From: a virus
Reading direction: 5' to 3' (one strand)
Virus record (IMG/VR): IMGVR_UViG_3300015366_000015
Span: 1-22,231 of that record
DNA length: 22,231 nucleotides
The translations under genes were made by a program, and so were the position numbers. Positions 1 to 21,855 of this stretch are shown in pieces (the first letter of the stretch is position 1; every line of letters starts with the position of its first letter). The notes beneath the pieces are model-generated. The model saw only the letters and a list, made by a program, of their open reading frames with translations, was not told the origin of the DNA and did no database searches.

Positions 1-2738
1 ACTATATATTTATCTATTTTTAAAGTTCCATCAGGATAGAAAGTTGCTTCGTTAAAAGAAATTTTATAGTCTTGACCTAAAACAGATATTGCTGTAAACC
101 CATCTTCTTCTATGTTTCCATACCAGTCTGTTGAGTTTATAGCTTTGTCAATTTCTTTTTTTGACACGCTAATATCAGTTTCAATACCTAAGTTTTTAAA
201 AGCTTTTTTAACAATGTCAGACTGGTTAGTTGAGTTCCAATCAAGAAGTTCATCAGACGTAGCTTTAATAGAAGAATGGTAAGTAGGAACTTTTATTTTT
301 TCTGCTAATTGTCCTCTTTCAAAAAAAGACTCAAACTTTATGTTTTGAAAATCTTCTTTTGCAAGACTGTATTCATTACCAAGTTGTTTTTCTAATGCTT
401 CTAATTCTTGGATTGCTCTTTTGGCAGTATCTTTAATGCCACTTTCTGGACCAACTAATTCGTCACGCAAAAGTTCTTTGTCTTGAGCAATATTTTTTAA
501 TTGAGACTCAAGATCACTTAATCTTTGCTCAGCAACAATTACTTGTCGTTCAATAGCATCAAGTTTAACTTTATCAGCTTTACCTTCTGGTGACTCCAAA
601 TATTTATCAAGAGCCTTTTGCTTAGCCATCTCAACATAATATCTGTTTGTACTATCTTTTTGAGAATGGTAAGTACCCGCACCAAATACATTAAATCCTT
701 CACCTGAAAGAGCGTTTTTAACCCAATCAAACATTCCAAATTTGTATGGGCTAGTGTGAGCAACAGGAATACCTTCACGTTGTAATTGGTCGTGAATCTC
801 TTGAGAAAGTTTGCTAGGAACAAGAGTAATTTTTCCAGAACTGTCTTGTTTAAAACCTTTAGATTCTTCTACAAGAGCTGACCCATGTTCAATAACTTCA
901 TCAAAAGCTGTACGCTGGTTTTCAGGAACACCTAGACCTTCTTTTACAGCATCTTTAAATGCTTGCCACATGTTACTAAGAACACCCTTTTGTGGAGCAG
1001 TAGCTTTTAAACTGCTAAGCAGTTCTTTAAATTTATCATTGGTAAAAGCTTCAGCAACAAACTCGTCTACGTTAACAAGCCCGTAAGCTTTACGATTTTC
1101 TTTTTCAAATTGTTTAAGCTCTCCTATAGTAGGAGCAAGGTTTTCTTGTTTAAATTTTGCTAAAGCAGCATCGTATTCAGCATTATGTTTTTCTAAAAAT
1201 AGTTTATGCAACTCTTTAAGTTTAATAGCAGCAGCAGATTTACCTTCTTGAATAAGACGGTGTGTACCAGCGTGCATAGCTTCGTGAGCTAGCACTCTAA
1301 TGTCTCCATCTTTTGCTAGCTGTACTGTGTGTGTATTGTTTTCATACAGACCAGCAGCATCTTTTTTTGTTTTGCCGTTTGCATCAACGTATTCAAGATA
1401 GTCTTTGTTGTACATAAGACTAGCGTCACGAATAAACTCAGACTGATTAAGCACTGTAAGCAAAGCACGTTGGCTCTTAGTGCCTAAACCTTCTGTACTA
1501 AGAATCCTATCAAAAGCCTCACCAACAGAACTTGCACCATCTAAATGGTCATGCAACTCTTCCCATGTAGGAGTTGTTTTATTTTTAAACTGAACGGGAC
1601 CTTTAGGAACACCAGCAGGTTGATCTTCTGTAATAGCAAAACGTTCATCACCAGCTTTACGAAGGTCACCACTGTGCAACCCATCTTCAGGGATTTCTAA
1701 TACATGGTCTTCAGGTAATTGACCAGCACGTTTAGCTTGGTCTACAGCAGCTTCACGATCATAAAAGTTATTGCGGTTATCTACAAAACCTTGTTCATGG
1801 GTATCAGCAGTCTCAGCTTTACGTTGCTCGTCATGCTTAGGACCCATGCGCTCAATTTCACCAGTCTTTTTGTTCCTAATAGCAGCTTCAACCAAAGGAG
1901 ATGTAGAAGTTCTTTGTTCAGATTCTTTTTTAACTTTAGCTTTAAAAGCATTAACCTGTTCAGGTGTAGCACCGGGAGGAGGTGGAGTTATTGGTGCTTC
2001 TTTAGGTTTAAATTTTGAAGGTACAGTTTTTTCACCAAGCTTAGTTAGTTTGCCAGGCATCAAAGCACCACCACCAAACTCTAAAAGACTCTTACCTAAG
2101 TCTTGTTCTTCACCTGTAGCAGCACGTTGACCAGCACCCACACCAGCTTGAATAGTGCCTGACACACCACGTTCAACAAGGCTTTTACTAAGAACTGTAG
2201 CAGCAGTTTTAGTAGATACAAAAGGAGCAGCACTAGCAAGTTGACCGCCTAAAGCATAGTACTCATGTTCTTTACGACCAGCTTCACGAGTAGCTTTGTC
2301 AACGTTTAACATTGACATATATTTTTTAGCTAAAGGACTTGATTCTTCTAAAGCAGTCAAGCCTTCTTCTTCAAGATAATTAGCAGCAAATCCAGCAGCA
2401 CCACCAGCAACAATAGCTGAAGGAATAGCAACCCAAGGACCAAATGGAGCAGTAGCCGTACCAACAGCAGTAGCAGCACTTACACCAGCAGCAGTACCAG
2501 GAGAAGATAATACGGCTTCTCTAACAAACGTACCTGGACCAGTAGTCTTAGGAGGTTCTTTACCTGTTACAAGATCACTTAAAGTTTGAGTACTAACCTT
2601 GTCTCCAAAAATACTAGAGCTAGATTTGCTAGGTGTAGAAGTTTTTCCTAAAAATTCATCTGGGTCAAACCCTTTAGAAGGAGCAACTGTCTTTTTAGAT
2701 GTGTTTCCTAAAAACGCATCTGGATCAAATTCAGCCAT
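1..2738 (-). CDS. Large ejected virion protein with zinc-peptidase and ADP-ribosyltransferase-like segments (partial, runs off left edge)
   Basis: The frame is open from the ATG at 2738 to the window edge, giving 912 visible residues and no stop. The start has an AGGAGGG-type site just upstream, inside the end of the preceding gene, which it overlaps slightly or abuts. Visible parts in order: a duplicated FDPD(A/E)FLG motif at residues 4-11 and 24-31; an Ala/Gly-rich hydrophobic stretch at about 75-125; a Pro-rich linker near 245-265; HEAMH at 485-489 with a downstream acidic cluster DEFVAEAF (E559 or E563), the pattern of gluzincin metallopeptidases; an AHTSPYKFGMFD segment from about 660 to Y690 (GAGTYHS) resembling ADP-ribosyltransferase-like domains of phage polyvalent proteins; then a Lys/Glu-rich predicted coiled coil. 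By position and size it matches T7 gp16, the large ejected internal core protein, but I see no transglycosylase in this part. Its function as an ejected effector is inference. Confidence 0.8.
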   Translation of the reverse strand, partial: MAEFDPDAFLGNTSKKTVAPSKGFDPDEFLGKTSTPSKSSSSIFGDKVSTQTLSDLVTGKEPPKTTGPGTFVREAVLSSPGTAAGVSAATAVGTATAPFGPWVAIPSAIVAGGAAGFAANYLEEEGLTALEESSPLAKKYMSMLNVDKATREAGRKEHEYYALGGQLASAAPFVSTKTAATVLSKSLVERGVSGTIQAGVGAGQRAATGEEQDLGKSLLEFGGGALMPGKLTKLGEKTVPSKFKPKEAPITPPPPGATPEQVNAFKAKVKKESEQRTSTSPLVEAAIRNKKTGEIERMGPKHDEQRKAETADTHEQGFVDNRNNFYDREAAVDQAKRAGQLPEDHVLEIPEDGLHSGDLRKAGDERFAITEDQPAGVPKGPVQFKNKTTPTWEELHDHLDGASSVGEAFDRILSTEGLGTKSQRALLTVLNQSEFIRDASLMYNKDYLEYVDANGKTKKDAAGLYENNTHTVQLAKDGDIRVLAHEAMHAGTHRLIQEGKSAAAIKLKELHKLFLEKHNAEYDAALAKFKQENLAPTIGELKQFEKENRKAYGLVNVDEFVAEAFTNDKFKELLSSLKATAPQKGVLSNMWQAFKDAVKEGLGVPENQRTAFDEVIEHGSALVEESKGFKQDSSGKITLVPSKLSQEIHDQLQREGIPVAHTSPYKFGMFDWVKNALSGEGFNVFGAGTYHSQKDSTNRYYVEMAKQKALDKYLESPEGKADKVKLDAIERQVIVAEQRLSDLESQLKNIAQDKELLRDELVGPESGIKDTAKRAIQELEALEKQLGNEYSLAKEDFQNIKFESFFERGQLAEKIKVPTYHSSIKATSDELLDWNSTNQSDIVKKAFKNLGIETDISVSKKEIDKAINSTDWYGNIEEDGFTAISVLGQDYKISFNEATFYPDGTLKIDKYI

Positions 2739-7872: not shown

Positions 7873-8163
7873 TTACCACGGTACACCAGTTGCAGTGACA
7901 GGGTTCTTTAGCAATTCAATCTGACTTGCTAGACTTGCTTCTATTGCGTCTTTATCCACGCCATTAGCCCAACACCAATCCAGCACATCCTGCTCAGTCA
8001 CACTGGCATAGGGGATGGATGGTGTAGCACTAGCAAAGCCACAAGTGCTGTAAACAGAGGCTGTGTAGTCTCCATCTACTGCTGTTGCTGTCCAATGTGC
8101 GGTGGTGATAAAACCGTCAGAGACTAGGTAGTCTGTTTGTGCAATTTTCCAAGTAGTTGTCAT
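7873..8163 (-). CDS. Small conserved phage protein downstream of fibre gene (DUF7936-like)
   Basis: A 96-residue protein, beta-rich at the N-terminus (TWKIAQTDYLVSDGFITTAHW) with a helical C-terminus containing WCWANGVDKDAIEASLASQI and ending in NPVTATGVPW. I recall this combination as a widespread phage family, probably DUF7936, but could not check. Its ATG overlaps the stop of the S74 fibre gene by four bases (ATGA), with GGAG seven nucleotides upstream. This coupling and the recurrent position next to fibre genes suggest a fibre-associated or fibre-assembly role, which is inference. No catalytic or membrane feature is visible. Confidence 0.7.
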   Translation of the reverse strand: MTTTWKIAQTDYLVSDGFITTAHWTATAVDGDYTASVYSTCGFASATPSIPYASVTEQDVLDWCWANGVDKDAIEASLASQIELLKNPVTATGVPW

Positions 8164-9473
8164 TTGTTCTCCAATACTGTGATTCGTGCTGTCAGGGCTG
8201 TGATGAGGGCTTGTTGTTCTTGGATGGATTTAATCAAAGCGGGAACAAGAATAGACGTATCCACACCCCATGCTTTTTCAACTTCATCGCTAGTATCACC
8301 TTCGCTAACGCAAGTTGGTTCAACTTCAAAAAGTTCTTGAGCAATTACGCCATAATCAACATGAGTATCTGAATCTTTCCAATCAAATGACCTGATTTTG
8401 ATTTGATTTAACAAGCCCAAAGCAGATGGCGCATCAACAATATTTTTCTTTAATCGAGCGTCTGATGTTATGTTGTAAAGAGTATTTGTACCGTTATAAG
8501 TAATTGAACCAACAGTGGTGATTGTTGTAGATACTCGCTTTAAAAATTCAACAAAATAGCTTGTACCAGATGAATAACCATTAAACAATTGAAAGTTGTA
8601 AGCAGATGAACCATTTGCTTGATAAGAGTTAAATAAACCACTTTGACCAACTTGAGTTCCGCCTAATAAAACAGCACCGCCTGAGTCGATACGCATACGT
8701 TCTGAGCCGTTGGTAGTAAATCTAATAGTGTTTGCAGACCCCGTTTCAGAAACAATATCTAAATAACCAGAGCCACCTTGTATGTAGCCATAGCGAGTTC
8801 CTGCTGTGTCAAACAATGAATAATAACTAGCATTTTGCTGCACTCTAATTTCATTACCATAAACATGTAACTTTGCACTTGGCGAAGTAGTACCTATACC
8901 CACATTACCGCTGGAGTCGATACGCATTGCTTCTGTGCTTCCGTTTATTTGAAAAATAGAAGCAGATGGACTTTGCAAAATAACATTGCTACTTGCATTT
9001 AATTGCAAAATATCTTTTCTTGTACCACCAGAATCTTTAAACTGTAATGCTGTTGCATTTGGTAAAGCAATATTGCCGTTTACATCAAGTTTAGTTGCTG
9101 GCGAACTAGTACCTATACCCACGTTACCAGAAAAAATTTGATCAGTACTAAAAGTATTTTTTTCATCTAGTTTTGGAATGTCATTAAGATTAGCAGCAAC
9201 TAAACGTAGTTCAACTTTATCCCCAGAATTCCAAGCTTGACCACTAGTTCCATCTTGACCACGAACAATAGTAAATGTGTCTGTAGAACGAGTTGTCACT
9301 TTAATAATCTCTATAGCACCACTTGAGTTAGCTAGTGTGCAATAAAAATAATCTGAACCACTAGACGTAGGAAACAAAGCTCCTGCACCAGCAGAAACAG
9401 TCAAACTAGTAGCACTATTTGTAATGCCAGTTGCTAGCGTAGTAGCAGCGTTATTAGTGAACTTCATTACCAT
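8160..9473 (-). CDS. Tail fibre protein with C-terminal S74 self-cleaving chaperone domain
   Basis: A 437-residue fibre. The N-terminus (about 1-95) is a beta domain, probably for attachment. Residues 117-134 and 190-207 carry two copies of NVGIGT-SP--KL-V-GN, a repeat common in fibres bearing S74 domains, and MRIDS(S/G)G occurs twice. From S337 the sequence SDARLKKNI marks the peptidase S74 (intramolecular chaperone) domain; cleavage in this family occurs just before that Ser, using the Ser and the following Lys as the catalytic pair. FDWKDS, HVDYGVIAQE and a final helix (PALIKSIQEQQALITAL) complete the domain. In known members it trimerises the fibre, then cuts itself off, so mature protein would be about 336 residues. 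GGGAG seven bases before the first ATG supports that start over Met3. Confidence 0.92.
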   Translation of the reverse strand: MVMKFTNNAATTLATGITNSATSLTVSAGAGALFPTSSGSDYFYCTLANSSGAIEIIKVTTRSTDTFTIVRGQDGTSGQAWNSGDKVELRLVAANLNDIPKLDEKNTFSTDQIFSGNVGIGTSSPATKLDVNGNIALPNATALQFKDSGGTRKDILQLNASSNVILQSPSASIFQINGSTEAMRIDSSGNVGIGTTSPSAKLHVYGNEIRVQQNASYYSLFDTAGTRYGYIQGGSGYLDIVSETGSANTIRFTTNGSERMRIDSGGAVLLGGTQVGQSGLFNSYQANGSSAYNFQLFNGYSSGTSYFVEFLKRVSTTITTVGSITYNGTNTLYNITSDARLKKNIVDAPSALGLLNQIKIRSFDWKDSDTHVDYGVIAQELFEVEPTCVSEGDTSDEVEKAWGVDTSILVPALIKSIQEQQALITALTARITVLENK

Positions 9474-9488
9474 AACAATCTCCCGTTT

Positions 9489-9773
9489 TTATCCGTTGTT
9501 TAAGTTTAAAACATTGAGCGCAGAACCGTTGATAGGGCTTGTTGGTTGAACTAAAAATATAAAATAATCTGATTGTTCTGGTCTAGTAAATGGAGGAGCT
9601 TGTTTATCAGCTACACCATGTACAAAGTCTTGAGGCTGTCTAGGTTCCCAATCTCCACTACAAACCATCAGACCATCCCACCTCATTTGTAGTTCGCTGT
9701 TTTTATACTGACGACCACAAACGTCACAAATGACGTTCCAACTTCCATTATCCCATCTAGGTTTGTACGACAT
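9489..9773 (-). CDS. Small Cys-containing (zinc-ribbon-like) phage structural protein
   Basis: A 94-residue protein with CDVCG (C16, C19) and a third Cys in RWDGLMVC (C38), followed by DWEPRQPQDFVHGVADKQ and a PPFTRPE stretch. I recognise the WDGLMVC..DWEPR.PQDF pattern as a recurrent phage family of unknown function, found beside fibre genes. In copies I remember the residue after EPR is usually His; here it is Gln (Q46), so if the site binds zinc the fourth ligand would have to come from elsewhere, perhaps H52. The ATG overlaps the stop of the upstream gene by one base (TAATG), and no strong ribosome binding site is seen, suggesting translational coupling. A structural or adaptor role is inferred from position only. 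Confidence 0.75.
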   Translation of the reverse strand: MSYKPRWDNGSWNVICDVCGRQYKNSELQMRWDGLMVCSGDWEPRQPQDFVHGVADKQAPPFTRPEQSDYFIFLVQPTSPINGSALNVLNLNNG

Positions 9774-10087
9774 TATTGCACTTCAGTTGTACTATACACG
9801 GGCAAGTCTCCTAGAGCAACTAGGGTACTTCCAGCACTAGTGGTTACAGTCATAACAAGACGGTAGGTAACACCAGCTACACCACTCTGAACTTGTTGGT
9901 AAACTTTGTTTCCTATGATAGTAGTTCCACCTGACAACACACTAGACGGATTAGCATCAACACCATCTATAACAATTACAGAGCAAGAAGATGTAGACAA
10001 AGTTTCTCCTGCCGCTAACGTCTGACTAAAGTCAAAAGACAGAGGCTTTATTTCAGCAACAAACTTGTAGGAAAAATATTCAGCCAT
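9773..10087 (-). CDS. Fibre-tail adaptor-like protein
   Basis: A 104-residue beta-sandwich-type protein. FDFSQTLAAGETLSTSSCSV near residues 18-37, then SSVLSGGTTIIGNKVYQQV and GVTYRLVMTVTTSAGS, give the layout of the roughly 100-residue phage proteins often annotated as fibre-tail adaptors (a strand-rich Ig-like domain with G-V/T-Y and an R-V-T-T-S-G edge). It overlaps the end of the repeat-rich fibre gene by eight bases (ATGGCTGA) and has AGGATG upstream, so it is translated together with the putative fibre. Joining the repeat protein to the particle is a reasonable but unproven role. Confidence 0.65.
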   Translation of the reverse strand: MAEYFSYKFVAEIKPLSFDFSQTLAAGETLSTSSCSVIVIDGVDANPSSVLSGGTTIIGNKVYQQVQSGVAGVTYRLVMTVTTSAGSTLVALGDLPVYSTTEVQ

Positions 10088-10994
10088 TTACATCATCCTG
10101 TTTTGTAACTACTATGTTGGTCTTCTTTGGTTTAACCAGTATTTCTATAAAGCCAGCAAACACTTGAACAATAACTTTCTTGGTAGGGACAAATATAGTG
10201 TCCTCAATGTTGGGCAAGACTTTGTAAAAGTACTTTACAACACTAGTATAAACGGTTGTTACTAATAACACAAACCTTGCTGTAATGGTAGCAACTAAAG
10301 CAGTTGTTGTAACTACAGCAAGAAGAATTTTAGCTCTTAGTTTTTGTATTGCTACTGTAGAAGCAACTGTAGCAGCTATTGTCCTACCAAGAGTTAGTAG
10401 TCTAACCATTGTGTTTGTTGTAGACACAGACGCAGTAAGTACTCTATTAAAGAAGAATCCGTAAAGTAACACTGCTGTATTAGTCACAGATGCAGATACT
10501 TTTTTACCTATAACTTTAATAAGCAAAACAGATGTAACACAAACTACAGCAAGTATTTTAAGAATACTTTTTAACAGTACTACAGAGCTTGTAGATACAA
10601 CACTAAGGGTTTTTACTAATGCTTTTAGGATAGTGTTGGTAGAAGTACTGGTAACTGTTATGTATTTAACTATTGCTTTAAAGATACTAGTTGTAGATGT
10701 AGACGTTACAGATTGAGGTTTACCTACAGTTAGTTTGTAAGTTGCTGTAGAACTAGAAGAGAAAGAAAAACTTTTAATTATGCTTTTTAAAAGTGTTGAA
10801 GTACTAGTAGATGCAGCACTTACTATTTTATTGATGTAAACAAGCTTAGTTGCAGTGCTAGTGCTTGTGATAGCTCTAATAACACCAACACCTCTAGCTA
10901 TAGTAAATGTACTTGTGCTAGAGACTGTTAATCCTTGAACATAACTAGAGCCGTTAAGTACTGCTTCATTAACAGCAAAAGAATTAAGAGACAT
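10080..10994 (-). CDS. Structural/fibre-like protein made of 18-20-residue repeats
   Basis: A 304-residue protein dominated by about eleven repeats (residues roughly 41-240). Each unit is a Ser/Thr run (TSTSTST or a decayed form), a short hydrophobic strand, and a closing basic residue: K56, K74, K92, K110, K128, K146 and K164 are exactly 18 apart, then R184, R204, K222 and R240. Early units are polar, for example VTSTSTTSIFKAIVK; later ones become very hydrophobic, for example ILAVVCVTSVLLIKVIGK. The N-terminus MSLNSFAVNEAVLNG resembles openings of small phage tail proteins, and the C-terminus (260-300) has strand-like EDTIFVP and Lys-rich segments. No known enzyme motif exists. A beta-solenoid or fibre shaft is my preferred model; a membrane-active protein is the alternative. 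The ribosome site is weak (AGAG). Confidence 0.7.
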   Translation of the reverse strand: MSLNSFAVNEAVLNGSSYVQGLTVSSTSTFTIARGVGVIRAITSTSTATKLVYINKIVSAASTSTSTLLKSIIKSFSFSSSSTATYKLTVGKPQSVTSTSTTSIFKAIVKYITVTSTSTNTILKALVKTLSVVSTSSVVLLKSILKILAVVCVTSVLLIKVIGKKVSASVTNTAVLLYGFFFNRVLTASVSTTNTMVRLLTLGRTIAATVASTVAIQKLRAKILLAVVTTTALVATITARFVLLVTTVYTSVVKYFYKVLPNIEDTIFVPTKKVIVQVFAGFIEILVKPKKTNIVVTKQDDVNG

Positions 10995-11013: not shown

Positions 11014-11379
11014 TTAACTAAACTGAGTCTTAAAGGTGAACTGAATTGAGTCACCAGAACTCAGGTTAATTGTTGAGAAGTCACCCTTAACAAACAAGTT
11101 GCCAGAAGTAGAAGCGTCAAACAAACCAGCATTGGTAATAGCAAGCGTACCACCAGCAGTCTGCGTACCAACTATTTGGTAAGTGTCATTAGTTACAGAT
11201 GTAGTTACTTGAGAACTAGTACCTGTTTGACGAGTACCTGTTTCAGTAAACAACGTTGTATCAGCAGCAGCAGTTGTACCAGCACCAGTACCATAAGCAA
11301 CGTACACAGGTTCTGTGCCACTACCTTTAATACGGCTAGTTACAATTGCTTTACCAGCATTAACTAAGAGAGTAGCCAT
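11014..11379 (-). CDS. Putative phage tail/structural protein
   Basis: A 121-residue beta-rich protein. NAGKAIVTSRIKGSGTEPVYVAYG at the N-terminus is followed by a Gly/Ala/Thr-rich region and strands such as GTLAITNAGLFDAST and NLFVKGDFSTINLSSGDSIQFTFKTQFS. I have seen this plan in small phage proteins that precede fibre genes, sometimes called tail fibre proteins, but no activity is known to me. GGAG lies nine bases before the ATG. The start overlaps the tail of a 53-residue gene by sixteen bases in another frame. Composition fits a virion surface part. Confidence 0.65.
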   Translation of the reverse strand: MATLLVNAGKAIVTSRIKGSGTEPVYVAYGTGAGTTAAADTTLFTETGTRQTGTSSQVTTSVTNDTYQIVGTQTAGGTLAITNAGLFDASTSGNLFVKGDFSTINLSSGDSIQFTFKTQFS

Positions 11380-16222: not shown

Positions 16223-16570
16223 TTAAACTTTGGCTAGGTACGGATCAACTAGGTCTACGTCAGCATCCAAAGTGCCTGTAACGTCTTTGTCGTTGATCAT
16301 TCGGTACTCGCTTCCATCTCTACCAAGATAAAGCAGACCAGCATACTTAGCAAAAATAATCTTGTCCCCAATTTTGCACCAAGGTGCAGGTTCATCGGCA
16401 AAGCAGTCATTACCCATAGCAACAACTACTCCAGTGGTATTAGCCATCTGTTCTCGGTTCTTGTAACTACCACTGGTAATAACAATACCGCTTTCAGATG
16501 TCTCTTTGATTTCTTGGGGTTTAACCAAGACTCGCCAACCAACGGGGTTTATTCCTGACACATTACTCAT
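16223..16570 (-). CDS. GroES-like co-chaperonin
   Basis: The open frame extends upstream to 16675, but the ATG at 16570 gives a 115-residue protein that begins as GroES proteins do (INPVGWRVLVKPQEIKETSE), and its ATG overlaps the stop of the previous gene by eight bases. Residues 20-40 form the mobile loop with I29-V30-I31, equivalent to the IVL tripeptide of E. coli GroES that docks on GroEL. GVVVAMGND and CKIGDKIIFAKYAG match the GroES core strands, and an acidic C-terminal extension (about 100-115) is added. It likely caps the host GroEL ring during capsid protein folding, like T4 gp31, and lies between portal and scaffold genes. Confidence 0.88.
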   Translation of the reverse strand: MSNVSGINPVGWRVLVKPQEIKETSESGIVITSGSYKNREQMANTTGVVVAMGNDCFADEPAPWCKIGDKIIFAKYAGLLYLGRDGSEYRMINDKDVTGTLDADVDLVDPYLAKV

Positions 16571-16796
16571 AGCTAGGTTCTTTCTTTTGAATAGATTCAA
16601 ACAAGTCTTCATACTCAAGGTTAAGGATAATTGCGATTGCTCGACATCTACCTTTAACTTCAGCCTCATCGTCAAATGAGCTATTGATTAAACCTTCTTT
16701 CATTGCTTCTCTGTCGTTTGATAAAGACTTCATCAAACGTTTAGTAACTGGGTGATGTTTCCATTCATCAAAGTTACTAGGGCTTACTGGCTCCAT
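16563..16796 (-). CDS. Small conserved phage protein between portal and co-chaperonin
   Basis: A 77-residue helical acidic protein: NFDEWKHHPVTKRLMKSLSN followed by DREAMKEGLINSSFDDEAEV and RCRAIAIILNLEYEDLFESI. I recall HPVTK.LMK.L...RE...EGL type proteins beside phage portal genes, with no known function. An excellent AAGGAG site lies five bases before the ATG, and the end overlaps the co-chaperonin start (ATGAGTAA), so both are translated together. Head assembly assistance is inferred from context only. Confidence 0.7.
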   Translation of the reverse strand: MEPVSPSNFDEWKHHPVTKRLMKSLSNDREAMKEGLINSSFDDEAEVKGRCRAIAIILNLEYEDLFESIQKKEPSYE

Positions 16797-18899: not shown

Positions 18900-20414
18900 T
18901 TAGTATCCACAAATAGCAGAACGACCAGAATCTAACACATTACTGTCCCGAACAAAAGCCTCGTACTCTTCTTCTTCCAACTCTTTTTCGGAAGGAGCTT
19001 CCCACATCCTATCAAGCATTAACCCCAAGTATGCCCAAGCATCTACCTGGTCGTCATGTTTGTCCCTAGGAAATCTAAGAAGTTCATCCTCAAAGTTTTG
19101 ATACCAATCAGCGTCCTTATCGAACTTACAAGCCCCACTTCTCATACGAGCTTGAATGCTTCTAGCACGGGTCAGTTTGTCTCCACTAGGCTTGAGCAAC
19201 ACAGTGTTAATAAATTCTCCACGCTTCATCATCTCCTCATTGAGATAGGGACCAATGGCTTTTTGGATCGTTCCTTGTTCGAGTCCAAAGAGTACGGGCT
19301 TATAAATCTTTTGCAGCATCAGGATTGTATCCACGATTTCTAAAGCGTCCATACGTGCTTTGACTACGTGTTTACAGTACAGCTTTCCTTCTTCATCCAT
19401 ACCACCCACTACAAAAGCAGAGTAATCAGCTTTTTGGGATTGAGATACAGCTAAGTCACAAGTAGCGTAATAGACTAGTTTTTTCTTCTGGTCTTCAGGC
19501 TTCATAGCAACAAAGTCTGTGTTTTTAAAGAAGGTGTCGGTTATGTCCAAAGGAACATTAAGCATCTCTTGGGAGTAAACATCAGCTAAACCTTGGCGTA
19601 CATAGTCTTCTTTGAGTAGCCTAAACTCAGCAGCAGACTTCATTTCAGGCCAAAGCAAAGTCTTAAAGTCATCTGTGTGAGCACGGTACTTAACAGACCT
19701 CCAAGGCAGAACGTTTAAAGAATACTCTCGCAAGTCTTCTTGAACTAATTGCTTGATACCTTTGTGAGAACCTAACTGAGAAGCTGGCATTAAGTTCTCA
19801 AGTAGACTGTCTAAGTGAAGGATAGTGCCTACTATACGTATCTTTCCTGTAGATGAGACACAGGGAATAAGAGCACCATAAAACCAGCGTTTGAACTTCT
19901 GACGGCGATCTTTGTTCATAACAATCTCGTCATTCTCCATGTCATCCCCAATGATGAGGTCTGGACGAAGGTTAGCCCACTTTAATCCACGAAGTTTTTG
20001 CTCAGAACCTTTAGCTTGGATACGGAATGTCCATCCGTCTTCCAACTCAACAATCAGATCGTCTTCAGTATCTTTTGGAAATTCTTTAATACCAAACAGA
20101 GAACGCAGGTCATCGTTCTCCAACAGCTCTTTTTTGATGTCTCCTAGAAACTGTACGGCTTGAGTAACAGTATCTGAAACAATAAGAACGTATCTGGACT
20201 CCCTAAAGAGGACAGATGCTAGGGTATAGGCATGGGTTACGGCTGTAGATTTAGCGTGATACCGAGGAGCAGCTATAGCAACTTGTTTGCTGTTACTAGT
20301 AACAAGATCCCATATTTCTTTATGGAATTCAGGAGTAGCTGCTGGTTTATCAAAGTTCTTTCTCAACACAGAGTTGACAAAGCCTTCCATAACGTCAGAG
20401 TTGAGCTTACTCAT
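18900..20414 (-). CDS. terL: Terminase large subunit
   Basis: A 504-residue packaging motor. ATPase part: a Walker A-like AAPRYHAKST at residues 48-57 (the classic GKT is replaced by a form seen in phage terminases), Walker B LIIGDDME at 153-160, and a coupling motif near IVGTI (194-198). Nuclease part: D320 in TCDLAVSQSQKADYS with D330, E379 in GLEQGT, and D454/D455/D458 in KHDDQVDAWAYL, the acidic triad of the RNase H-like domain. Length is normal for the family. The ATG overlaps the hydroxylase stop by four bases (ATGA), indicating translational coupling. An acidic, Glu-rich C-terminal tail (477-488) probably contacts the portal. Confidence 0.93.
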   Translation of the reverse strand: MSKLNSDVMEGFVNSVLRKNFDKPAATPEFHKEIWDLVTSNSKQVAIAAPRYHAKSTAVTHAYTLASVLFRESRYVLIVSDTVTQAVQFLGDIKKELLENDDLRSLFGIKEFPKDTEDDLIVELEDGWTFRIQAKGSEQKLRGLKWANLRPDLIIGDDMENDEIVMNKDRRQKFKRWFYGALIPCVSSTGKIRIVGTILHLDSLLENLMPASQLGSHKGIKQLVQEDLREYSLNVLPWRSVKYRAHTDDFKTLLWPEMKSAAEFRLLKEDYVRQGLADVYSQEMLNVPLDITDTFFKNTDFVAMKPEDQKKKLVYYATCDLAVSQSQKADYSAFVVGGMDEEGKLYCKHVVKARMDALEIVDTILMLQKIYKPVLFGLEQGTIQKAIGPYLNEEMMKRGEFINTVLLKPSGDKLTRARSIQARMRSGACKFDKDADWYQNFEDELLRFPRDKHDDQVDAWAYLGLMLDRMWEAPSEKELEEEEYEAFVRDSNVLDSGRSAICGY

Positions 20415-20980
20415 AAGCCTTCCTGATCTATTTGAAACAGTGAGGTCTCTAAGTCTAAAATTAAATGAATCCGTTCTTTTTGACTACTGTTAGCAGCAGA
20501 ATGTTTTTTACGATGATTAAACCACCATACATCTCCAGCTTTGATATGCTGCTTCTCTGTTTCACAAAATATAAAATTGTCAACAGAAGTACTGACAGCT
20601 AAGTGAAACCTAGAATAAGATTTGGCGTACATACCAACATCTACATGTGTTTGCACTTGACCACTAGGTTTTAATATGACAAGTAATATTCTGCCTATTT
20701 TTGTGGGGTTAAGATTCTTATAGATGTGATCTAGCAAAGGAATTAAGAGCAAAGCTAAATCTTGTGGGATAGGGTAATCAATAGCAGAGTCTGTATTAAA
20801 GTAGCTGTCTACTGTCATTTCAAGTGGACCACGAATAAATATTGTTTGTGTATCTTTGTGAAAGTCTACTGCATCTTGTCTTGCTGTAATTAAATTCCAA
20901 AGTTCTGGGTTGTCTTCTAAATACTCTTGGAGAGGTTTGACATTTAACCCAGAAGCTACGGCTTTAAAGTTATTGAGCAC
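20411..20980 (-). CDS. Aspartyl/asparaginyl beta-hydroxylase-like Fe(II)/2-oxoglutarate oxygenase
   Basis: I place the start at the GTG at 20980 because AAGAGG lies six bases upstream; an ATG at 21019 would overlap the small terminase gene by 50 bases and has no good site. From GTG the protein has 189 residues. THVDVG gives the iron ligands H112 and D114; SRFHLAV follows; GDVWWFNHRKKHSAANSS supplies H160; and R170 in ERIHLILD is where this family binds 2-oxoglutarate. Spacing and the W-F-N....H..N.S...R.HLI.D pattern match the aspartyl/asparaginyl hydroxylase family. All catalytic residues are present, so it is probably active. The target is unknown; it might modify a virion or host protein. 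It sits between the two terminase genes and overlaps both. Confidence 0.85.
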   Translation of the reverse strand: MLNNFKAVASGLNVKPLQEYLEDNPELWNLITARQDAVDFHKDTQTIFIRGPLEMTVDSYFNTDSAIDYPIPQDLALLLIPLLDHIYKNLNPTKIGRILLVILKPSGQVQTHVDVGMYAKSYSRFHLAVSTSVDNFIFCETEKQHIKAGDVWWFNHRKKHSAANSSQKERIHLILDLETSLFQIDQEGL

Positions 20981-21509
20981 TAATAACCTCTTTAACTTGT
21001 ACATCAATTGGAACAGCATTGTTCATCTTGTTACCAGCAAACTTAGCAAACTCAGCACTAAGTCTAAGCAGCCTCTCGTCAATGGTCTTCTCAACTTCTT
21101 CCCTGTTGATAGGAGTTTCATCTAGCTTCTGTTGCTTAGACAGTAAGTCTGTTGTAATCTTTAAAGCAACGTGAGCCTTGATAGGTACTCTGACAATATC
21201 CCCAGTACGTTGATCAAACTGAGCATCTCCAAAGTCAATGCGTTCTTCAGTAGCTTTGAGAGCTTTATTGATAACCCGCTTAAGGTTAGAGTCCATCTGC
21301 TGAACATCTTCAGTCTTTAGCTGGAGACTAAACTCTTTGAACCAATCCATCTGTTTCCAGAGTTTAAGGGTAGGTAAGGGTATACCCGTAACAATAGCTG
21401 TCTCAGCCATATTGCCAAGCATAAGGTACGTACTGACAGCTTGAAGCTTTTGGTTCTGTGACCACACAGATTTCTTGTATCTCTTGTCTCTAGAAGTACG
21501 TCTTTGCAT
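20970..21509 (-). CDS. terS: Terminase small subunit-like protein
   Basis: A 179-residue mainly helical protein. The basic N-terminus (MQRRTSRDKRYKKSVWSQNQ) is followed by a predicted helix-turn-helix, KLQAVSTYLMLGNMAETAIV then GIPLPTLKLWKQMDWFKEF (about residues 22-60), which in small terminases recognises the packaging site. A helical oligomerisation region (to about 110), an ITTDLLSKQQKLDE segment and a C-terminal acidic to neutral tail follow. Identification rests on this plan and on position just before large terminase, with the hydroxylase between. The ATG abuts the stop of the previous gene (TAAATG), with GGAAG upstream. Confidence 0.75.
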   Translation of the reverse strand: MQRRTSRDKRYKKSVWSQNQKLQAVSTYLMLGNMAETAIVTGIPLPTLKLWKQMDWFKEFSLQLKTEDVQQMDSNLKRVINKALKATEERIDFGDAQFDQRTGDIVRVPIKAHVALKITTDLLSKQQKLDETPINREEVEKTIDERLLRLSAEFAKFAGNKMNNAVPIDVQVKEVISAQ

Positions 21510-21780: not shown

Positions 21781-21855
21781 TGGTAGCGGGGGCTGGATTC
21801 GCACCAGCGGTCTTGTGGTTATGAGCCACACGAGATACTCCTTCTCCACCCCGCA
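21781..21855 (-). tRNA. tRNA-Met(CAT), initiator-like (fMet type)
   Basis: Read on the minus strand this 75-base gene folds as a cloverleaf ending in encoded CCA. Acceptor stem TGCGGGG pairs with CCCCGCT in six pairs, leaving T1 opposite T72 unpaired. D-arm GAGA/TCTC gives A11-U24. Anticodon arm TGTGG/CCACA encloses CTCATAA, anticodon CAT. T-arm GCTGG/CCAGC encloses TGCGAAT. An unpaired 1-72 position and A11-U24 are hallmarks of bacterial initiator tRNA, and much of the sequence matches initiator fMet. Two departures: only two of the three usual G-C pairs above the anticodon loop (T29-A41 replaces the third), and G instead of T at position 55. The D-loop is also short. Elongator Met remains possible. 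Confidence 0.85.

Follow-up and report, generated by a model that had tools for sequence, protein, structure and literature searches.

A periodic repeat protein as the probable rope of a GP4-type beads-on-a-string side fibre in a tailed phage from IMG/VR

Introduction

What is the role of a protein built mostly of 18-20-residue units, each with a Ser/Thr run, a hydrophobic strand and a basic residue, when it matches nothing in the sequence libraries searched? The question is raised by IMG/VR virus record IMGVR_UViG_3300015366_000015, all 22,231 nucleotides of which were analysed and are called the window below. The protein, P0001, is encoded on the minus strand, the sole open strand of its ORF. 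A preliminary description of the locus had proposed a regular solenoid or stacked-strand fibre shaft or, alternatively, insertion of the hydrophobic half in a membrane. Family and sequence searches with P0001 yielded no Pfam, PHROG, PDB or phage-record match, and a back-translated pattern search of IMG/VR with P0001 alone found zero relatives; these were therefore reached via the adjacent adaptor and bead genes. The resulting comparison indicates that P0001 probably serves a tailed phage as the rope, or string, of a beads-on-a-string side fibre like that of GP4, in a sequence form absent from the libraries searched.

Results

The repeat array and its ends

The division of the rope protein and its position among the neighbouring genes are given in Table 1.

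Table 1. Rope protein of the window, its parts and the adjacent fibre genes
Feature	Position	Strand	Basis or remark
Rope protein (P0001), 304 aa	10083..10994	minus	stop codon 10080-10082; ORF 10080-10994
N-terminal tip motif, residues 1-22 (MSLNSFAVNEAVLNG...)	10929..10994	minus	conserved as 'M[SA]LNxxA[IV]NxxVLNG'
Repeat array, residues 23-258, about 12-13 units	10221..10928	minus	periodicity and basic ladder
C-terminal domain, residues 259-304 (VLPNIEDTIFVPTKKVIVQVFAGF..ILVKPKKTNIVVTKQDDVNG)	10083..10220	minus	alignment of relatives: most conserved part of the rope
Bead protein, 121 aa, Pfam PF23140 Gp80 (podophage GP4 fibre I)	11014..11379	minus	upstream of the rope gene
Fibre-tail adaptor, 104 aa, Pfam PF23148 Gp77	9773..10087	minus	downstream of the rope; start overlaps rope end by 8 bases
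Tail fibre with C-terminal endosialidase chaperone (Peptidase_S74)	8160..9473	minus	family searches

The 18-residue period is real. The autocorrelation of Lys and Arg in P0001 is 0.41 at lag 18, a value reached by 0 of 2000 permutations at any lag from 10 to 29, and at lag 18 there are 69 identities, where none of 1000 shuffles gives more than 51. All members of the basic ladder named in the preliminary description (K56, K74, K92, K110, K128, K146, K164, R184, R204, K222, and R240) were recovered, and K258 extends it; the ladder spacings in the array are 16, 18, 18, 18, 18, 18, 18, 20, 20, 18, 18, and 18, all even. Other details of that description had to be amended. The repeats stand, but the ladder gives about 12-13 of them rather than eleven. 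The ladder residue is one of two basic residues per unit, the other lying four positions before it (K70/K74, K106/K110, K124/K128, etc.), with successive K/R spacings of 14, 4, 14, 4. The gain in hydrophobicity toward the C-terminus holds for the average of that half only: hydropathy by unit (0.62, 0.23, 0.83, -0.06, 0.17, 0.51, 1.29, 2.25, 0.60, 0.68, 0.64, 1.79, 1.09) does not rise monotonically, and the trend stems mainly from its peak, the single unit at residues 147-164. Finally, the repeats run to residue 258 and not to the end of the protein, where a separate conserved domain follows.

This C-terminal domain resembles the Val/Arg-rich ends of other ropes, and a similar motif is N-terminal in Gordonia phage ropes, which carry another domain at the other end. 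Both observations suggest a virion anchor, and we propose that the domain is virion-proximal and faces the adaptor. At the opposite end, the tip motif is replaced in some relatives by a start of the form 'MFGxxxxAQAPFAS' or by an adhesin-like domain.

Bead, adaptor, and other genes of the window

The adaptor was assigned to PF23148 with an E-value of 2.6e-11 (44.3 bits, cut-off 27). Its profile matched a sole PDB entry, 8JOU (chain 8jou_D, E 0.0016), and hhalign gave 96% probability against the Lessievirus-type Gp77 profile. Entry 8JOU, titled 'Fiber I and fiber-tail-adaptor of phage GP4', contains 10 Gp80 chains and three adaptor chains. The bead scored just above the PF23140 cut-off of 27 (29.4 bits, E 1.1e-6); a profile of window-type relatives had a single PDB match, 8jou_a, which at E 0.2 is suggestive only, and profile-profile support for the Gp80 assignment is limited to the C-terminal third.

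The bead fold was modelled on a read-through Gp80-rope fusion, with the stop codon read as Gly in L117, made for the fold only. The core of the bead part (residues 1-121) has pLDDT mostly of 67-84; the rope part is below 40, and the rope is not placed. Structure comparison matched the bead model to 8jou_a (Z 6.2), A511 gp105 (Z 6.7), the phi812 arm (Z 6.8), and T4 gp8 (Z 5.6), where the 8jou_a match alone could reflect a common arrangement because Z is below 8. A Foldseek search with the fusion model returned no match at E <0.001.

The Peptidase_S74 protein likely belongs to the same tail as a fibre of its own. Elsewhere in the window there are a GroES-like protein (16223-16675), whose syntenic gene in MW202796 is annotated as chaperonin 10 kd; a possible Asp/Asn hydroxylase-like protein (20411-21019), judged by eye only; a tRNA-Met gene close to the right end (21781-21855, minus strand); and a minus-strand ORF that runs off the left end of the window (3-2738, at least 912 aa), probably a large internal or ejection protein.

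Relatives and whole-unit length change

In IMG/VR, 25 loci were reached by the adaptor gene and 80 by the bead gene. A family-blind periodicity test found 47 periodic ORFs among 599. The 18-residue period is kept in 44 of the 47, nearly all of which are encoded immediately behind the Gp80-like gene or one gene further on. Among the 57 Gp80-like loci with at least 2.5 kb downstream, which are related to each other and thus do not give independent counts, 52 have a rope-like ORF, recognised by period alone in 34 and by terminal motif in the rest, and a Gp77-like gene is likewise present in 52. The register, the two basic positions and the alternation of large and small residues are kept across 495 units.

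These data support the idea of a beta-repeat fibre in which the number of regular units changes from phage to phage, as the relatives are 250-947 aa long and differ by whole units, from about 12-13 in the window rope to as many as 28 counted. The longest carries an adhesin-like N-terminal domain. Among close relatives (68-85% identity), internal gaps of 74 aa in the array separate L022 from the window, L012, and L017, and L014/L015/L019/L020 from L016; a 73-aa gap separates L029 from L030/L031, and gaps of 74-75 and 149 aa occur among L093/L100/L106. On inspection these large gaps correspond to four (73-75 aa) or eight (149 aa) units. Smaller gaps of 17-18 aa in the array are also seen, and some relatives show a separate gap of 25-28 aa near the N-terminus.

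Two ropes of different period, L016 3165-6008 (period 18) and L165 5534-8284 (period 20), have a common N-terminal domain starting 'M[AG]NRYWVGGTATWD', which is probably an interchangeable adhesin. Profile A8 gave a single match to genome contigs, in a contig binned as Saccharibacteria, and so no host is claimed.

The same gene trio in other phages

A trio of a bead (~120-146 aa), a repeat protein and an adaptor (~90-110 aa), with repeat sequences unlike one another, was found in Burkholderia Lessievirus, Ochrobactrum POI1126, Sphingobium Lacusarx, Microcystis Mae-JY22 and JY28, phage DSL-LC06, Gordonia Phendrix and Vasanti, and mycobacteriophage Rumpelstiltskin; Namazuvirus is among the groups with the trio, and parts of it occur in Rhizobium and Alishewanella phages. 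The repeat gene lies between bead and adaptor at the same position in BcepIL02, DC1, CSP3, JC1, and POI1126, and the beads of JY22 and Gordonia are candidates by position and pattern, not by Pfam. The basic ladder of the preliminary description holds in the window clade and proved to be specific to it, being absent from several other rope families.

Individual loci show further variants. In Rhizobium phage TM16, the gene behind the bead gene encodes a protein of 1659 aa (L004 5185-10161), annotated DUF4082 only, with an 18-residue rope array in its C-terminal ~340 residues. A Microcystis phage protein (L009 744-1421) carries the repeat 'DxxHxHxxD...LxQxHxLxV', which has a period of 22, and is flanked by candidates for Gp77-like and Gp80-like proteins. 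Three Gordonia-type proteins (L122 7250-9319, L128 7255-8754, and L210 5744-7060) have reversed polarity, with an Arg-rich anchor-like motif at the N-terminus, then repeats of 24 and another domain.

Virion proteins of JC1 include the Gp80-like gp53 and the Gp77-like gp55; the rope gp54, unlike its neighbours, was not detected by mass spectrometry (PMC9144972).

An even repeat period

The best lag is 18 in the window, ct2os315, and TM16; 20 in BUCT-ZZ01, BcepIL02, DC1, BcepMigl, POI1126, JY28, the mycobacteriophage, and PBC5 orf12; 22 in JY22; and 24 in Gordonia. Runner-up lags are mostly even as well, and significance of the period is weak in some families (Itty13, Lacusarx). Ladder spacings in the window family are even in 264 cases and odd in 12. 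In an independent set of 87 loci obtained via other bead sequences, the period is even in 27 of the 30 periodic ORFs up to three genes away (binomial 4e-6, without phylogenetic correction), and one of the odd-period exceptions is collagen-like. The parity control is small, since only 3 of its 219 ORFs pass the threshold, namely the ropes of the window (18) and of Slicko01 (20) and a Milano ORF that is unrelated to them (21).

Side-chain volume within the 18-residue unit alternates between 142 cubic angstroms at even and 122 at odd positions, the strongest component being at 180 degrees. A reading of 18 residues as five alpha turns was rejected: a 100-degree hydrophobic moment is present, but other families have 20, 22, and 24 residues and the volume peak is at 180 degrees. 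An even period is what one continuous extended strand would need in order to show every bead the same face.

Discussion

Taken as the rope of a GP4-type fibre, the repeat array of P0001 would run as a single continuous extended strand, along which dimers of the neighbouring Gp80-like protein would bead at roughly one per unit or per few units. A dedicated repeat protein is a natural string for such beads because the Gp80 fold is known for clamping extended chains. The C-terminal 46-65 residues would fasten the rope to the tail at the Gp77-like collar, whereas its N-terminus, or the adhesin domain fused there in some relatives, would form the distal tip; the fibre may serve in contact with the host. 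Gain or loss of whole repeats would then alter fibre length and bead number and leave the bead register undisturbed. Attraction between a basic rope and an acidic bead was considered as a general binding rule and dropped, as the net charge is only about -1 in window-type beads and several of the ropes elsewhere are acidic.

Three other explanations were weighed. According to one of them, the repeats fold alone into a beta-solenoid or a trimeric stacked-strand shaft, and the Gp80-like and Gp77-like proteins are mere neighbours. Lengths of 18 and 20 residues are common for solenoid rungs, which counts in its favour. Prediction of the monomer structure, suggested earlier as a check, does give strands throughout, with pLDDT of 52-69 in residues 61-170 of the AlphaFold model and no separate helices in the repeats; the all-beta model is nevertheless poor, its mean pLDDT being only 50 despite so regular a repeat. 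Poor beta-helix models, suspected to be unreal, were also reported by the authors of the LSH1 study (PMC13243795). Moreover, a solenoid would explain neither an even period in unlike families nor the constant coupling to Gp80-like genes. The shaft favoured by the preliminary description is thus unlikely, and the bead and adaptor neighbours, the even period across unrelated families and the poor monomer make it no longer the best reading.

Low model confidence could equally be expected if the repeats were mainly a flexible spacer between tip and anchor, with the Gp80-like protein building its own fibre elsewhere, and the simple, fast-evolving composition, with P0001 itself lacking relatives by back-translated patterns, points the same way. 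However, spacers rarely hold register, whereas here a strict register, two basic positions and the large/small alternation persist throughout the 495 units, and array indels are whole units; we regard a spacer as distinctly improbable. Insertion of the hydrophobic C-terminal half in a membrane, as in a holin-, ejection- or pore-like protein, can appeal to the 19-residue stretch 144-162, where mean hydropathy reaches 2.59. Yet no helix is predicted in the repeats, albeit in a poor model, basic residues recur every 4-14 positions, the very hydrophobic unit is not conserved, being swapped for a polar one in relatives such as L029, and the gene sits in a fibre cassette. This part of the preliminary description found no support, and we consider it very improbable indeed.

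A wider generalization suggests itself, for and against which we find the case about evenly balanced: rope proteins would be a large unnamed class in tailed phages, marked not by sequence but by an even period (18-24) next to Gp80-like and Gp77-like genes, with parity imposed by a single extended strand that passes through the bead dimers, a period adapted to the bead clade, and length changing in blocks of about four units (73-75 aa). For the rope of the window clade, no Pfam or PHROG family was found. The even period beside Gp80 and Gp77 genes offers a sequence rule for finding such fibres, and the dependence of fibre length on repeat number is a testable prediction.

Several known systems share elements of this arrangement. 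The garland proteins of Milano and 7-7-1 have the same bead fold and form chains of dimers, and the nature of the string is a question raised in the Milano study (PMC10811340). No periodic rope gene was found beside the Milano garland, and gp126, tried as a periodic string, is not periodic. A511 gp105, the phi812 arm and T4 gp8 are bead dimers on an extended chain of the baseplate; the Gp80 fold includes A511 gp105, whose dimers are known to clamp such a chain. In these phages, in contrast to the window, part of a baseplate wedge protein acts as the string and carries three dimers, and there is no dedicated repeat protein of variable length.

In Alishewanella phage LSH1, gp34-gp35-gp36 constitute a published three-gene module of virion proteins, where gp35 was matched to 8JOU_g, gp36 is Ig-like, and gp34 combines an adhesin with a long unpredictable C-terminus (PMC13243795). 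It differs from the window in that the adhesin domain is fused to the rope and the Gp77 equivalent is not recognisable by sequence. The LSH1-related Slicko01 encodes a 1843-aa protein (L218 10881-17101, minus strand) with a 20-residue period in its C-terminal third (z 8.2), and after it come candidates for an Ig-like protein (107 aa) and a Gp80-like protein (121 aa); a Gp80 profile search of Slicko01 gave no match, and this bead was recognised by eye only. The period in Slicko01 may account for the 'unpredictable sequence' that the LSH1 authors describe in gp34.

The closest likeness is to fibre I of GP4 (PDB 8JOU; Zheng et al. 2023, J Mol Biol 435:168258), as far as we found the one solved long beads-on-a-string phage fibre, which reportedly consists of five Gp80 dimers joined by an elongated rope protein. 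No rope chain was recognised among the 8JOU or other PDB sequences, and the Lessievirus repeat protein is unlike every chain of 8JOU. The window bead is only about 20% identical to its GP4 counterpart (22% over 102 residues aligned to 8jou_a), and its rope is unrelated in sequence, consisting of 18-residue Ser/Thr-hydrophobic-Lys units in contrast to the ~20-residue Gly/Asn/Arg units of the Lessievirus relatives. At the same time, the bead and the adaptor are both profile-matched to 8JOU chains, the bead dimers are likewise expected to be linked by a rope, and the gene order of the GP4-related Lessievirus (bead, repeat protein, [extra fibre], adaptor, further fibre) is that of the window. The comparison thereby connects GP4 fibre I with many phages from metagenomes and with phages that differ in tail type.
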